From Methanomassiliicoccales archaeon (GTDB lineage Archaea; Thermoplasmatota; Thermoplasmata; Methanomassiliicoccales; UBA472), in contig DATKZX010000013.1 of assembly GCA_035527755.1 (NCBI GenBank), forward strand, positions 1 through 49,709: a stretch of DNA of 49,709 nt, in the 5' to 3' direction. Below, piece by piece: positions 30,574-36,303 of this stretch. Position numbers and translations under genes: made by a program. Positions within the stretch are counted from its first letter, which is position 1; each line of letters opens with the position of its first letter. The notes below the pieces were generated by a model. That model was not told the origin of the DNA. It was given only the letters and a program-made list of their open reading frames with translations, and did no database searches.

Positions 30574-30645
30574 GCAGGTGTAATCTAGCGGTTAGGATTT
30601 TAGCCTTCCAAGCTAAACACTCGGGTTCGAATCCCGACACCTGCA
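30574..30645 (+). tRNA. tRNA-Gly (anticodon TCC)
   Basis: A full cloverleaf of 72 nt. The acceptor stem GCAGGTG pairs with CACCTGC and is followed by discriminator A. The anticodon arm is TTAGC-CTTCCAA-GCTAA with anticodon TCC (30612-30614 region). The T arm is TCGGG-TTCGAAT-CCCGA. There is no intron, and CCA is not encoded. Its 3' end from 30634 is the left attachment site of the integrated element, and the gene is left intact. Confidence 0.95.
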
Positions 30646-30646
30646 C
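30634..30646 (+). repeat. attL core (tRNA-Gly 3' end)
   Basis: CCGACACCTGCAC, identical to 34204-34216. It covers the last bases of the T arm, the 3' acceptor strand and the discriminator of tRNA-Gly, the standard target of archaeal tyrosine integrases. Confidence 0.88.
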
Positions 30647-30656
30647 TCCATCTCCT

Positions 30657-30725
30657 ATCCAGAGAATTATTTTCTGGATTCAATCAAAAGGGTAATTACA
30701 AAAACCCTTTTCTTTTTTATTTTTT
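30657..30725 (+). terminator. Two hairpins and T-tract after tRNA-Gly, upstream of Rep
   Basis: First ATCCAGA (30657-30663) with TCTGGAT (30673-30679). Then AAAAGGGT (30686-30693) with ACCCTTTT (30704-30711), followed at once by a T-rich run to 30725. The second unit has the form of an intrinsic terminator for the tRNA transcript. Because both lie directly before rep they are also candidates for part of its replication origin. Confidence 0.5.
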
Positions 30726-30746
30726 CAATTGACCGGAGGGATCATC

Positions 30747-31538
30747 TTGTGCGATGATTCCCCGTCTTCGCTCGTTCCGTATAATGGAAAAAGTGGGCTG
30801 GATGATGAAAAACCTAGAAAAGAGTATGATTTTTCTGATGGTTGTCAAAATTCTTATTCTTTTGAATTAGAGTGCCACGAATGTGGAACGAAGATAGATT
30901 TAACTGTGGGCTGTGGAAAAAGGTTTCCACAACAATGTCCCATCTGTTCTAAAAAATGGAAACGAAAGACTTTTAAGAAATATTATCGAGCAATAACACA
31001 ATTTAAGGATCCTAAATTTTTAACGCTTACCCTTCGATATGATAAGACAAAAATAGAGTTCGTGGCTAAAGACAGGGATATCTGGAGCATGAGGAAAGAA
31101 TTGTTCAGAGTGCTCAGAGAACAGTATCATAAACCCATCAAGGGATGGGTTGCTACTGTTGAATATCCTAATCATATCCATTTGGTGATCGATTCCCCCT
31201 ACATCGACCAGGATTTGATTTCTAGGACATGGCAAACTATTACCGGGGATTCTTTCAAGGTAGATATTCGCCAGGTTAAAAAATATGAATTCAGGAAGAT
31301 GGCGTCCTACTTGACAAAATATATTAGTAAGGCTACTTGTTGGGATGATGTTGATCTGGATCAGTTAAAAGGTTTTCACATCAAAGGACAATGGGGTTTA
31401 AACCCTGGTGTCCCTCCCCCAAACCTATGCCATTATGGCCAAGTGCATAAGGTTGAGCATGAAACAAGTTATTCCAGTCATGCTAATGCTGATCGTCTGA
31501 GACTGTTTTTAAAGGATAGTTTGCCCCCACTTGGATGA
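30747..31538 (+). CDS. Rolling-circle replication initiator (HUH endonuclease Rep)
   Basis: A protein of about 263 aa. The N-terminus has a zinc-finger-like set CHECGTKIDLTVGCGKRF then QCPIC. The three Rep motifs follow in order: motif 1 KFLTLTLRY, motif 2 NHIHLVID with the metal-binding H-x-H, and motif 3 MASYLTKYISK with the candidate nicking tyrosine(s) and lysine. Such enzymes nick the double-strand origin and start rolling-circle replication. No in-frame ATG lies near the start. TTG 30747 is chosen because GGAGGG ends 6 nt before it; TTG 30729 is the longer option. An IS200/IS605 transposase is less likely, as the zinc finger and YxxKYxxK arrangement fit plasmid Reps. Confidence 0.82.
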   Translation: MCDDSPSSLVPYNGKSGLDDEKPRKEYDFSDGCQNSYSFELECHECGTKIDLTVGCGKRFPQQCPICSKKWKRKTFKKYYRAITQFKDPKFLTLTLRYDKTKIEFVAKDRDIWSMRKELFRVLREQYHKPIKGWVATVEYPNHIHLVIDSPYIDQDLISRTWQTITGDSFKVDIRQVKKYEFRKMASYLTKYISKATCWDDVDLDQLKGFHIKGQWGLNPGVPPPNLCHYGQVHKVEHETSYSSHANADRLRLFLKDSLPPLG

Positions 31539-31567
31539 GTAATAGAACCCATCTATCCGGGCATCAT

Positions 31568-32086
31568 TTATTCGAGAATTTTATTAATTTTACTTACTGT
31601 AATATTTTTGGATTTCATTATGAAATTGATTAAATCTTCTTTTTCATCACCATCGAATAAAGGAGAGTAATTCATGTCCAGTTCGGAAATTATTTTTTTT
31701 AATTTGGGTTTTGATAATGTTTTTAATTTTTCCTTTTTTGTAAGTGGTTTTTCATCACCTGTTTTTGTCTTTGTAGCTGTATCAATGTTTTCTTTACTTT
31801 CTTTAATGCCAAAATGTTTTTTCTTATATCTCTCAATAGACATTGTGCCCATACCACGGTTGCAGGGGCCACAAATAGGCCTTAGGTTGTCGATGTGATC
31901 ATTTCCGCCTTTTGATACTGCCTTGTTATGTCCAATTTGAAAATCGGTTATGTGAATAGTTCTGATTTGGCAACAATAGCACTTTCCTTCAGCTTTGTTT
32001 CCGATGTATTTGAACCAGACTGCATCTCTAGTGTTTTTATCGATCTTTCTCCGTTTCGGTTTTTCTTCATCTAACCAACCGAACAC
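31568..32086 (-). CDS. HNH endonuclease with SAP-like C-terminus
   Basis: A 172-aa protein. The HNH core is GKCYCCQIRTIHITDFQIGH, then NLRPICGPCNRGMG: two CxxC zinc pairs flank the H-N-type active site. A lysine-rich linker leads to LSKPKLKKIISELDMNY and DEKEDLINFIM, which resembles a SAP/Rho-N DNA-binding helix pair. It may act in element DNA processing, packaging, or attack on rival DNA. Start is GTG 32086 with GGTGA 4 nt upstream. It converges on rep, with a 29-bp gap. Confidence 0.82.
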   Translation of the reverse strand: MFGWLDEEKPKRRKIDKNTRDAVWFKYIGNKAEGKCYCCQIRTIHITDFQIGHNKAVSKGGNDHIDNLRPICGPCNRGMGTMSIERYKKKHFGIKESKENIDTATKTKTGDEKPLTKKEKLKTLSKPKLKKIISELDMNYSPLFDGDEKEDLINFIMKSKNITVSKINKILE

Positions 32087-32256
32087 TAAATCACCATGGA
32101 AAGTGTATTTTTATAATGAATAAATAAAGATATTTAGAAATTTACTGATATTGAAAATAATCATTTGAAGGAAAAATTAGATGTTATCGAAATGATATTT
32201 TGAACAGTTCTCGATGGGTCTTTAAAAAGATTGGTGCAGAGGCCTATCTTCTCGGG

Positions 32257-32293
32257 CGTGCGTCAGCACGACCGCCAACGGCGCAGAGCGCCG
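32257..32293. other. Two GC-rich hairpins in AT-rich DNA (origin or RNA candidate)
   Basis: CGTGC-GTCA-GCACG (32257-32270) and CGGCGC-AGA-GCGCCG (32279-32293) stand 8 bp apart. They sit in a stretch about 240 bp long between the HNH and membrane-protein genes that is otherwise strongly AT-rich and has no coding frame. Stable hairpins of this kind mark double-strand or single-strand origins in rolling-circle plasmids. A small structured RNA is the other reading. Confidence 0.5.
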
Positions 32294-32324
32294 GTTTTCA
32301 ATAAAACAGTACTGAATGATAAAA

Positions 32325-32600
32325 TTACATTTCTTTGACATATTTTAGAATACCAATCAGTAAACAAACTCCACCAGCAAGAAGAGTAAGATGTGCTGGA
32401 ATAACTAAGAATAGATAGGGTTGACCCATAACTGGAATATGATAAGATCCAACATAAGTTATTACAGTAGAAAAAGCAAATAAATATGTTATATAGCCGA
32501 TTGCAATCAAAATAAATCCATAAACAATAAATCGAATTCCATCTTCACATTTCGGTTTTCTTTTAAATTCGGATTCTAATAAAAGATCATTATCTCTCAA
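32325..32600 (-). CDS. Small membrane protein of the element
   Basis: A 91-aa protein with a charged N-terminus (EFKRKPKCEDG) and two or three hydrophobic helices: FIVYGFILIAIGYITYLFAF and LFLVIPAHLTLLAGGVCLLI, with a short basic tail. I recognise no family. The TTG start at 32600 is preceded by GGATGG with a 5-nt spacer. A virion, immunity or copy-control role is possible but unproven. Confidence 0.6.
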   Translation of the reverse strand: MRDNDLLLESEFKRKPKCEDGIRFIVYGFILIAIGYITYLFAFSTVITYVGSYHIPVMGQPYLFLVIPAHLTLLAGGVCLLIGILKYVKEM

Positions 32601-32659
32601 TTAAACCATCCATAAATGATTTACATCATTCAGCTTATAAGTTGCCCATCTTTTTTAAA

Positions 32660-32864
32660 AATAATTATACAAAATATCAATAATATATTATTGTACAAAA
32701 ATATTAATAATCATATATGTTATTATATAATATACAATTATTAAAAACAATCATATGACCTGATTTGTTGGTCTATTTATGGTATACCAGATATGTGTTT
32801 AAAATATACAATTATATTACATATTTATAGAAACATTTATTAACAATTAGGCCAATTATTTCAT
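32660..32864. repeat. AT-rich region with imperfect direct repeats and a 16-bp palindrome
   Basis: This fills the gap between the membrane-protein gene and the integrase; no gene is seen. It contains a perfect palindrome CAATAATATATTATTG (32678-32693). TACAAAATATCAATAAT and TACAAAAATATTAATAAT are close copies, and ATATACAATTAT occurs twice further on. Such AT-rich iteron-like DNA is typical of replication origins or partition sites, but low-complexity sequence alone could produce it. Confidence 0.4.
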
Positions 32865-32876
32865 GCACTTAAGTGC
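32865..32876. promoter_or_regulatory. Perfect palindrome upstream of integrase
   Basis: GCACTTAAGTGC, a 12-bp perfect palindrome about 110 bp before the integrase start. It is GC-richer than its surroundings and a plausible dimeric-regulator site. Confidence 0.4.
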
Positions 32877-32909
32877 TTAAAAACTGTAATAATACTGACA
32901 CGCTGCCCA

Positions 32910-32961
32910 CGATCTAACTCTGTTCTGTTTGTGATAATTGTTGTGATAAAATGTTAGATCG
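32910..32961. promoter_or_regulatory. Integrase control region: inverted and direct repeats
   Basis: CGATCTAAC (32910-32918) and GTTAGATCG (32953-32961) are 9-bp inverted repeats 34 bp apart. Between them TTGTGATAA occurs twice with a 12-bp period (32929-32937, 32941-32949). The block ends 24 bp before the integrase ATG, so it may hold an operator or arm-type integrase sites. Confidence 0.5.
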
Positions 32962-32985
32962 AACGATCAGGAGAGCAGCAGGTCA

Positions 32986-34194
32986 ATGTCTTTCCCTAAG
33001 AATGACCCGGTTAAAATCGGAAATTCATCATCATTCAATGGGAATGCTGCACCAAAGATAATTACTCCAGAGCCTAATTCTCCTTCTGAGGGTTCGAATG
33101 CCAAGCGCAAAGCTGGCAAAAGTAAATCCTCTGTGGTCAAACGCAAGCCAGGAAAGAAAAGGAAGGGGAGAAGTATGGGCAGATACCCCTTTCTAACCTG
33201 GAAGAGCAAGTATCTTGAGACGATGGGGAGTAATTATACGGAGGCTACTAGAAAGGAGCATGATCGGAGATATCGAAGGATGCACAGGGATATGACAATG
33301 CTGGTTGAGAAGGGAAAAATGACTACCACCAATCCTGAGAAGATGACAGCGGAGGATATTCTAACTTTCATGGGATACCTTAAATCGAAAAAGGTCAAAG
33401 AAAGTGAAAGATGCCATGATCTGTCAGCTTTGAAAAATCTATTTGCCTTTGTCGGTAGTCTAGCCGTGGAACAGTTTAAAATTAAGTATAAAACAATGGT
33501 TCCACAAAGAAGACAGGGACGATATCCCCCGATGCAGGATACCGACTTTGAGGTCTTATTAAAGGCCTCTGAGACGGTCGATAATGACAATTGGAGGCTA
33601 TTGCAGGCCTATGCCATTGTCATTCTTTCCATCTGTGCAGGTCTGAGAAATAAGGAGCTCCGCCTCAGCGATGTCTATGATCTTGACGCTAATGAATGGA
33701 TATTCCATGCTAGGAGGGTCAAGGGAGAAGACACATATGGCCAGGCCAGAGATATTCCGATAAGGCCTGAGGCTCGTAGATTACTCATAAGATACTTGAG
33801 ATTGAGAAAGCGATTAGTTGCCGAAAAAAGACCGGATAACTTGGCTCTCTTTCCAGCATTGGGAGACAAGAGGGATGGGTATTATGTTGGCAACAGTCTG
33901 CAAAAATTGAAGACCTTAGTGGAACAGGACACCGGAATCAAGTTCGATCTGAGGATGTGCCGTAGGACATTTGGACAATTGGCACTCGATGAAGGGATGA
34001 GCATTGAATCTGTGTCTGGTTTCTTGGGTCATAGTAATACAAAGACCACAGAGAACAACTATTGCCGGAGAAAACAGGATTTGGCAATAAAGGAAGCTAA
34101 GAGATTATGGAACGATCAACATGATTCTAGCTCCTTGCCGATTGTAAAAACCCCTCTGATTGAATCTAAATATGAGGTGACTGGATATGTTTGA
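32986..34194 (+). CDS. Tyrosine recombinase/integrase
   Basis: A 402-aa enzyme. A disordered basic N-terminus (KRKPGKKRKGRS) precedes a core-binding SAM-like domain (about 75-170) and the catalytic domain. Seen: the first arginine in ICAGLRNKELRL, then RMCRRTFGQLALDEG in the place of HxxR (the histidine appears replaced by arginine), SGFLGHSNTKTTENNY with the histidine and the nucleophilic tyrosine. It would insert and excise the element at the tRNA-Gly 3' end. It ends 9 bp before attR. An AGGAG lies 12 nt before the ATG. Confidence 0.92.
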   Translation: MSFPKNDPVKIGNSSSFNGNAAPKIITPEPNSPSEGSNAKRKAGKSKSSVVKRKPGKKRKGRSMGRYPFLTWKSKYLETMGSNYTEATRKEHDRRYRRMHRDMTMLVEKGKMTTTNPEKMTAEDILTFMGYLKSKKVKESERCHDLSALKNLFAFVGSLAVEQFKIKYKTMVPQRRQGRYPPMQDTDFEVLLKASETVDNDNWRLLQAYAIVILSICAGLRNKELRLSDVYDLDANEWIFHARRVKGEDTYGQARDIPIRPEARRLLIRYLRLRKRLVAEKRPDNLALFPALGDKRDGYYVGNSLQKLKTLVEQDTGIKFDLRMCRRTFGQLALDEGMSIESVSGFLGHSNTKTTENNYCRRKQDLAIKEAKRLWNDQHDSSSLPIVKTPLIESKYEVTGYV

Positions 34195-34203
34195 GAGTGA
34201 AGA

Positions 34204-34216
34204 CCGACACCTGCAC
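34204..34216 (+). repeat. attR core
   Basis: CCGACACCTGCAC, the direct copy of the tRNA-Gly 3' end at 30634-30646, directly after the integrase stop codon. Confidence 0.88.
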
Positions 34217-34449
34217 CATTTTCCCTTTTATGCCATATCCCTTCACCGACCATTTTTCTATTCATAAAAAATTTCCTGTGGTGACGAACATGAGCGATTT
34301 ATGTTATCCCGCCCATGCAGGCGAAACGGTGAGCTTTCAGAAATGAATGATCTATGATAAGACATACATGATCCACGGCCAGCTGCATAACTGATCTGAG
34401 GATCGTCCGTAAGATCGGAAGTTCATTGGAGCTGTGCAAGAACTATCTG
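34217..34449. other. Intergenic sequence after attR, no gene seen
   Basis: Host DNA that would have followed tRNA-Gly before insertion. I find no credible frame, RNA or repeat here. An 83-codon minus-strand frame at 34352-34603 crosses the arcS terminator hairpin and has a proline-rich, non-protein-like translation. Confidence 0.5.
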
Positions 34450-34644: not shown

Positions 34645-36303
34645 TCACTTTCGCTTGTGCCGCACCTTGACCGCTTCACCCCGGCGCATATCCATCATCT
34701 CCCGGCCGCCCATGGTAGCTACGCCTACGCCGACGACCTTCTCGTTGCGCATGATAGCCACTTCTTCGCCAGCCCTGATGGATTCATCGGCGTCCGCGAC
34801 ACCGACGGCGAAAAGACTTCCCTTCAGTTCAAAGTCTCCCATGACCACCTTGGGCATTACCGGCAATATCGATTCCGCGCCTTCGATGGTCAGGGAGATC
34901 ATTCCCCGCTCCGGGTTAAGCATGCCCCTCTGCTCCTTTCGATGCATGATCTTCATGAAGGGATAGTTGCCCAGGATGTGAGCGTCCTCCAGCAGTGCTT
35001 CGCCCCCGGGCCCGAACTGGAAACCGGATACGGAGGACATGGCCGCCCAGCGGTCCATCGACGGATCGATGCGATCGTAAGTTCCGCAGAGCGCCACCAA
35101 TGTCTCCTTGAGCTTACCCAAGGAAGCGTTGGATGTGGGGGAGCCGTCCGAGGTGATGGTCCCATCCAGCACCTCCTGGATGATGGGACCCTCGTCTCCC
35201 AGATGGATGATGACGTGATCGTAGCCCTGCTTGGCCACGGACAGTGTCATGTCCTGTACCATGGCCTGCTCCTCCCGGTCCCAGTGACCGGTGACGGGTA
35301 TGTCGTACTGCGCTGCCGGATAGAACAGTTCCAGTTCTCGGGGGACCGCCCCTAGTGGTGAGGTGATGATCATCTCTTGGACCACTGCTCCGTTGGGGAC
35401 CTCCCACAGCACCTGACGGAAGAGCCTATGGCTCTTCGACGTGTAGTAGGGCTTCTTGGCCGAGCAGGGGATGAGCAGCAATATCTTACGGTGGTCGGGA
35501 CGATGGAAACGTGTTTTGACCATCTCCCTGAAACGTTTGACGTCCGGTCGGACCAGGGATTGCTTGGCGTTGCAGTAGAAACGTGGACCGACCACCCCGA
35601 AGTCCGTCTCTTGATAGGCGTAATGATCGTCATCGCAAATACGCAGTGCGGCCACGTTCCAAGGGGTGGCCTGGGAACGTAGCTCTGCCAGTTCCCTCAT
35701 CCTGCCCATGGATATCATATGCTTGATCAGACCGATCTCGTTCATCATCTGTTGTCGGTTGAACTGCTTCAGGTCGGTCTTCCCGTCCATAAGCCAGGAG
35801 GCCTTGTCCGCCGATATCGCTCCTTCCGGCAGGGATAACTGCCCCAATGCCGCCCGGTGATCGATCAATGCGCTGTCCACGAGGTCCACGCCAAGATAGA
35901 TCAGTATGGCCAGGTTGGTGGTATCGGCCATGCCGGGAGCGTATATCAGCTTGGAACGTCCCACTTCGCTCCTAAAGGACACTAAGGCGTTCACGAACGT
36001 TCGGGCGTCCCGACGCAGTTCAAAGGCGTTCTTCAAGACGGCGATCTCGGTCGATTCCGGCTCCGGTGACAAACAGCTTTCTTGAAGGAGGTTCCTGGCC
36101 CTCAGCGATGGAACCATCCCATCGCTCCATATCTTTAGGACCTCGCGGTCGCCCATTTTCAGTTCTGGACCTTCCTCGCCCATGCGGACGCTCAGCCCTT
36201 GTTCTCCACCCACCATGAAGACACCAGGTGTCTCTACCGAGCTGTCCTCTAAAGACCATAGGCAACGGCGAGCAGTTCCGGACCGGGCCAGCAGTTCCAA
36301 CAT
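34645..36303 (-). CDS. arcS: Archaeosine synthase ArcS (TgtA2)
   Basis: A 552-aa enzyme converting preQ0 to archaeosine at G15 of archaeal tRNA. The N-terminal half is a degenerate tRNA-guanine transglycosylase domain (YAPGMADTTNLAILIYLGVD). The middle holds the ArcS hallmark LIPCSAKKPYYTSKSHR. The C-terminal 75 residues form a PUA RNA-binding domain (FELKGSLFAVGVADADESI to KVRHKRK). A minus-strand TTTAATAGAT (36321-36330) about 23 nt before the ATG fits a leaderless start. It is downstream of the sulfur-relay operon on the same strand but with its own box. Confidence 0.94.
   Translation of the reverse strand: MLELLARSGTARRCLWSLEDSSVETPGVFMVGGEQGLSVRMGEEGPELKMGDREVLKIWSDGMVPSLRARNLLQESCLSPEPESTEIAVLKNAFELRRDARTFVNALVSFRSEVGRSKLIYAPGMADTTNLAILIYLGVDLVDSALIDHRAALGQLSLPEGAISADKASWLMDGKTDLKQFNRQQMMNEIGLIKHMISMGRMRELAELRSQATPWNVAALRICDDDHYAYQETDFGVVGPRFYCNAKQSLVRPDVKRFREMVKTRFHRPDHRKILLLIPCSAKKPYYTSKSHRLFRQVLWEVPNGAVVQEMIITSPLGAVPRELELFYPAAQYDIPVTGHWDREEQAMVQDMTLSVAKQGYDHVIIHLGDEGPIIQEVLDGTITSDGSPTSNASLGKLKETLVALCGTYDRIDPSMDRWAAMSSVSGFQFGPGGEALLEDAHILGNYPFMKIMHRKEQRGMLNPERGMISLTIEGAESILPVMPKVVMGDFELKGSLFAVGVADADESIRAGEEVAIMRNEKVVGVGVATMGGREMMDMRRGEAVKVRHKRK

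Follow-up and report, generated by a model that had tools for sequence, protein, structure and literature searches.

We confirmed that the window, a 49,709-nucleotide stretch of DNA from a Methanomassiliicoccales archaeon of the genus UBA472, carries an integrated element, a unit of 3,570 bp (repeat-to-repeat spacing) inserted in a tRNA-Gly(TCC) gene. From its sequence, this element is very probably an integrative rolling-circle plasmid that encodes both a replication initiator (Rep) and a tyrosine integrase (Int). Beyond what an earlier, sequence-only reading of this DNA had described, we report a conserved Int-att-Rep layout, arm sites beside the attachment cores, a candidate origin and the spread of related elements through the order, which together point to a widespread group of compact, integrative rolling-circle plasmids within Methanomassiliicoccales.

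Results

Extent and gene content of the element

The target gene, tRNA-Gly(TCC) (30574..30646, + strand; found by ARAGORN, Rfam tRNA score 68 bits), is intact, the left copy of a 13-bp direct repeat, the attachment core CCGACACCTGCAC (30634..30646, +), having restored its 3' end. The right copy (34204..34216, +) begins 9 nt past the integrase stop (34194) and forms the element boundary. Both the placement of the repeat and the 3.57-kb unit size given in the sequence-only reading are thus borne out by coordinates. That reading had allowed that the repeat might be a product of chance; a search of the whole window that tolerated up to two mismatches found no third copy of the core, and by our own estimate the chance expectation is ~0.002 (~10 registers x 12 kb x 4^-13, the location beside int being left out). 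Chance alone is an unlikely source, and a chance repeat is ruled out by the unique match beside int together with the empty sites described below.

Within these limits the DNA is foreign in composition, with a GC content of 37.1% vs 56.1% in the remainder of the window, as the description of low-GC DNA unlike its flanks had held. The earlier count of only four genes between the repeat copies also stands by open reading frames and domains: Rep, an HNH nuclease, a small hydrophobic protein and Int. In an Rfam scan only the tRNA exceeded its gathering score, and PADLOC returned zero defence-system matches, so that a defence-system reading was rejected.

The predicted HUH-type rolling-circle initiator Rep (30747..31538, +) is marked by HIH and YxxxY motifs and N-terminal CxxC pairs. 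The TTG start at 30747, common to the relative in the close sister genome G001, is preferred over 30729. Numbered from 30729, FLTLTL lies at residue 97, the HUH metal motif is present as HIH at 149 and the catalytic tyrosine motif follows as YLTKY at 194, in addition to two CxxC pairs. The domain matches PF23343 (REP_ORF2-G2P) at 3.3e-6, at the cut-off of that family, and a structure model of the protein (pLDDT 36) was too low in confidence to use.

Next to Rep lies a predicted HNH endonuclease (31568..32086, − strand; PF01844 HNH, 1.8e-5), a homologue of which, with 66% amino acid identity, is present in the element of genome G049. This gene also matched the NCBIfam IscB model at 4.7e-8, far below its cut-off; an IscB/IshB-like reading was rejected because the match covers the HNH part only. 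It is followed by a small hydrophobic open reading frame (32325..32600, −), a putative membrane protein assigned to no family, and by the tyrosine integrase (32986..34194, +; PF00589 Phage_integrase, 4.7e-9). Int is of full length, with the catalytic residues R221, K246, R326, H349 and Y359 conserved, and its profile matches sequences of the XerA, XerC and XerD structures; residues and family profile identify it as a tyrosine recombinase, and the integrase is intact as first reported. Int had no match in the plasmid collection, and the viral_contigs set contained zero relatives of the window Rep, Int or HNH protein when each of these was used alone as query.

The target site in related genomes

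The order of tRNA-Gly followed by a gene for a 552-aa protein (34645-36303, −) is kept in several relatives. Comparison of related genomes for an empty site, as the earlier reading had proposed, revealed four congeners (G002, G005, G007 and G008) without the insertion, in which left-flank homology breaks off where the tRNA ends, with no element beyond it. Another member of UBA472, G003, carries a related 5,318-bp element at the same tRNA site, bounded by a 16-bp repeat; from the core onward, G002 and G008 align with the outer flank of this element at ~86% identity and are therefore precise empty sites. Next to the tRNA-Gly of G009 only an arm fragment was found. The element is thus bounded by a repeat at the tRNA 3' end, with the empty site present in relatives, as in a tRNA-targeted integrative element. 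The window-type Rep was found in one other genome only, G001; this, together with the four congeners that lack the insertion, disposes of the concern that the same 3.6 kb might sit in all relatives with host-like composition.

Between G001 and the genome carrying the window element (G000), the flanks are 91.8-95.4% identical and the Reps 70.5%, the G001 copy being related to the window Rep but frameshifted. Rep is therefore more diverged than the adjacent non-coding DNA, which at sequence level implies turnover at the tRNA-Gly site, whereby the element would have been replaced or acquired separately in G000 and G001. An insertion inherited with the host is ruled out, since the divergence of Rep exceeds that of the flanks.

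Two G001 contig ends facing the site (L036 and L152) carry Rep and the hairpin motif described below. No right core repeat was found, and the Int end of the G001 element is therefore apparently gone.

In G002, G003, G005, G007 and G008 a tbp gene lies between tRNA-Gly and the 552-aa gene. It is missing from the corresponding part of the window (34217-34447) and was not found at the tRNA-Gly site of G001; related TBP genes are present elsewhere in both genomes. The residual 231 bp (34217-34447) had no match in the loci compared, and to the right of the right core only 13 nt resemble relatives, because the congener tbp is missing beside the tRNA here.

Elsewhere in the window's own genome (locus L042; G000:C6, ~62970-63143), a broken integrase remnant adjoins tRNA-Leu(TAA), a 12-bp repeat lies at a distance of 2,360 bp, and the whole is a decayed sister element.

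Arm sites and candidate origin

Just beyond the left core lies the Rep-side arm site (30656..30701, +), identified by sequence recurrence as TATCCAG followed by GATTCAATCAAAAGGGTAATTACAA; it is also found 3' of tRNA-Gly in G001 and G003, and partly in G009. The sequence after the tRNA (TATCCAG, GATTCAATCA, GGG) has an inverted repeat within the last part of the int coding sequence, the Int-side arm site (34142..34190, −). The 25-nt local match between the inverted arms scores 30, a score that none of 2,000 shuffles reached, and the cores of other elements are flanked by the same arm pair. On a 3,389-bp contig of G009, int is followed by a tRNA-Leu core and then the opposite arm; this looks as attP should, and a tandem-array junction would look identical.

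Between att and Rep, an 8-bp hairpin and a T-rich tract (30686..30726, +) form a possible transcription barrier. A multi-hairpin region further on (32215..32310, +) is a candidate origin or small RNA: as single-stranded DNA it folds with z = -4.9, and none of 200 shuffles was as stable. G000 and G001 each hold a single copy of its motif, TATCTTCTC...AACGGCGC, with differing stem sequences, and the fold of the G001 copy is less convincing (z = -2.0).

Related elements across the order

Of 150 related genomes, 94 contain relatives of the integrase, and among 147 genomes belonging to the order, 24 encode PF23343 Reps. Twelve Rep-Int units, the window's included, are bounded by direct repeats (3,570, 5,158, 5,283, 5,318, 5,381, 5,442, 6,370, 6,474, 6,499, 6,714, 7,530 and 8,208 bp), and lie in genes for tRNA-Gly, -Leu, -Arg, -Lys and -Ser. 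The window element is the smallest, the other 11 measuring 5.2-8.2 kb with repeats of 13-28 bp. Being the smallest of twelve favours the earlier view that it is unusually compact, but compactness alone is unexceptional because a small archaeal plasmid that pairs Rep with a tyrosine recombinase, pC2A (PMC9569500), and integrated archaeal elements as small as 2.6 kb (PMC6563490) are known.

In all twelve units Rep and Int share a strand, Rep opening the unit and Int closing it; in a circle the order would therefore be Int, att, Rep, and excision would join int to rep. For the window element, the coordinates give an Int-attP-Rep circle running in one direction with ~122 nt from int stop to rep start; this distance is 122-234 nt in 10 of the 12, the remaining two (L213 and L216) having uncertain Rep starts. 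Four (the window, G003, L213 and L216) have the tRNA at their Rep side, the rest at their Int side. Given that the units are related to one another and that some of the limits (L124 and L127) may be junctions between tandem elements, these do not count as twelve independent cases. In L124 and L127 a further arm-like sequence lies beyond the outer core copy, which suggests tandem accretion of elements at tRNA-Lys. Between Rep and Int, L117 carries an asparagine-synthase-like protein and L125 DNA methylase-like genes, both read from sequence.

The other 11 bounded elements encode a second Rep family (with PF23343 matches in G003 and G049). This family models well (pLDDT 77); its model bears a weak likeness to viral Rep nuclease domains in the PDB (best E 0.01) and, among predicted viral structures, to microvirus or CRESS initiators (best E 2e-6). 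Comparing profiles gave no firm connection between the two Rep families (hhalign probability 4.6%).

Discussion

The anatomy of the element suggests that Int would integrate or excise the element by recombining the 13-bp core while bound to the inverted arms that flank attP. In the circle so formed Int, attP and Rep would be co-directional, and Rep may nick an origin, perhaps among the hairpins at 32215-32310, to start rolling-circle replication. Integration parts int from rep and regenerates the tRNA, and it may be that this separation silences replication. A comparable arrangement is known from the SNJ2 pleolipovirus provirus, in which excision restores an int-rep replication operon and the origin is of a hairpin type (PMC13107129). 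In both systems excision would join int and rep (in the window element by prediction), and a hairpin-type origin is shared as far as our candidate holds; SNJ2, however, is a virus with Rep-Arvir rather than an HUH-type Rep, whereas the window element carries no recognised virion gene. We tentatively entertain the idea that integration state acts as a replication switch throughout the group, with attP between int and rep, an int-rep operon built by excision, and an SNJ2-like arrangement in which at least two Rep families without a clear sequence match occupy the same slot and Rep is of the HUH type, not Rep-Arvir. Given the Int-att-Rep layout, this model of excision-gated replication lends itself to direct testing, and a replicon of 3.6 kb that brings an integrase with it could seed genetic tools for this methanogen order.

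Other explanations deserve consideration. It is rather unlikely, yet not negligibly so, that the locus is a stranded remnant: an element integrated long ago whose genes look intact but which has ceased to excise or replicate. Most relatives at the site have decayed (the G001 Rep is frameshifted, Int is broken in G003 and G009 retains an arm only), and the element is present as a single copy in the assembly; a scan of viral_contigs for the exact circular junction (34203 to 30634) gave no match. Against decay of the window element itself, Rep and Int are full-length and retain their catalytic motifs, and the two arms and two cores are likewise intact.

We consider it improbable that the unit is a defective virus or a satellite of one, sharing the virus's integrase and relying on a helper for virion proteins. 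The integrase family does occur on one 39-kb IMG/VR contig, and the G2P-type Rep family includes filamentous-phage proteins, by family name, yet phage records contained zero matches to Rep or Int. Capsid, packaging and spike genes are absent from the element's four genes, and the open reading frames inspected in the window, G003, G049, L107, L117 and L125 elements yielded no recognisable capsid, portal, Zot-type ATPase or spike gene; other genes in these elements include restriction-modification-like proteins. Most improbable of all is a reading of Rep as a rolling-circle transposase of the IS91/ISCR type, and of its surroundings as an ordinary integrase island into which it inserted. The N-terminal CxxC pairs, the YxxxY motif and a weak match to Zn_Tnp_IS91 (E 0.029) would fit such an origin; however, Rep has the same core-adjacent place in G001, a different Rep fills that slot in the other 11 bounded elements, there is one copy per genome, and zero copies with transposon ends were found elsewhere in UBA472 genomes.

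As an integrative rolling-circle plasmid, the window element belongs to a kind already known from pC2A, thaumarchaeal integrated elements and SNJ2, while its family and layout were not found described in the literature searched. A search for plasmids of Methanomassiliicoccales, outside which most subscription papers lay, found nothing relevant, and the element combines features of these three systems in an order for which we found no such description. By description, pC2A of Methanosarcina acetivorans resembles it in being small and archaeal and in encoding both an HUH Rep and a tyrosine recombinase (ssrA), but it is known as a free plasmid, tRNA integration not being described in the portion of the account available (PMC9569500). 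Cryptic integrated elements of Thaumarchaeota are likewise small and integrase-borne, and one of them, NitAQ6f-E2, has a rolling-circle initiator (PMC6563490); they differ in lineage and proteins, and the 2.6-kb NitUzo-E2 has no recognised Rep. The nearest annotated relatives of the window Rep are those of small cryptic Acinetobacter rep plasmids (2-4 kb), with 25-37% identity over part of the length; these plasmids are bacterial and matched via Rep only.
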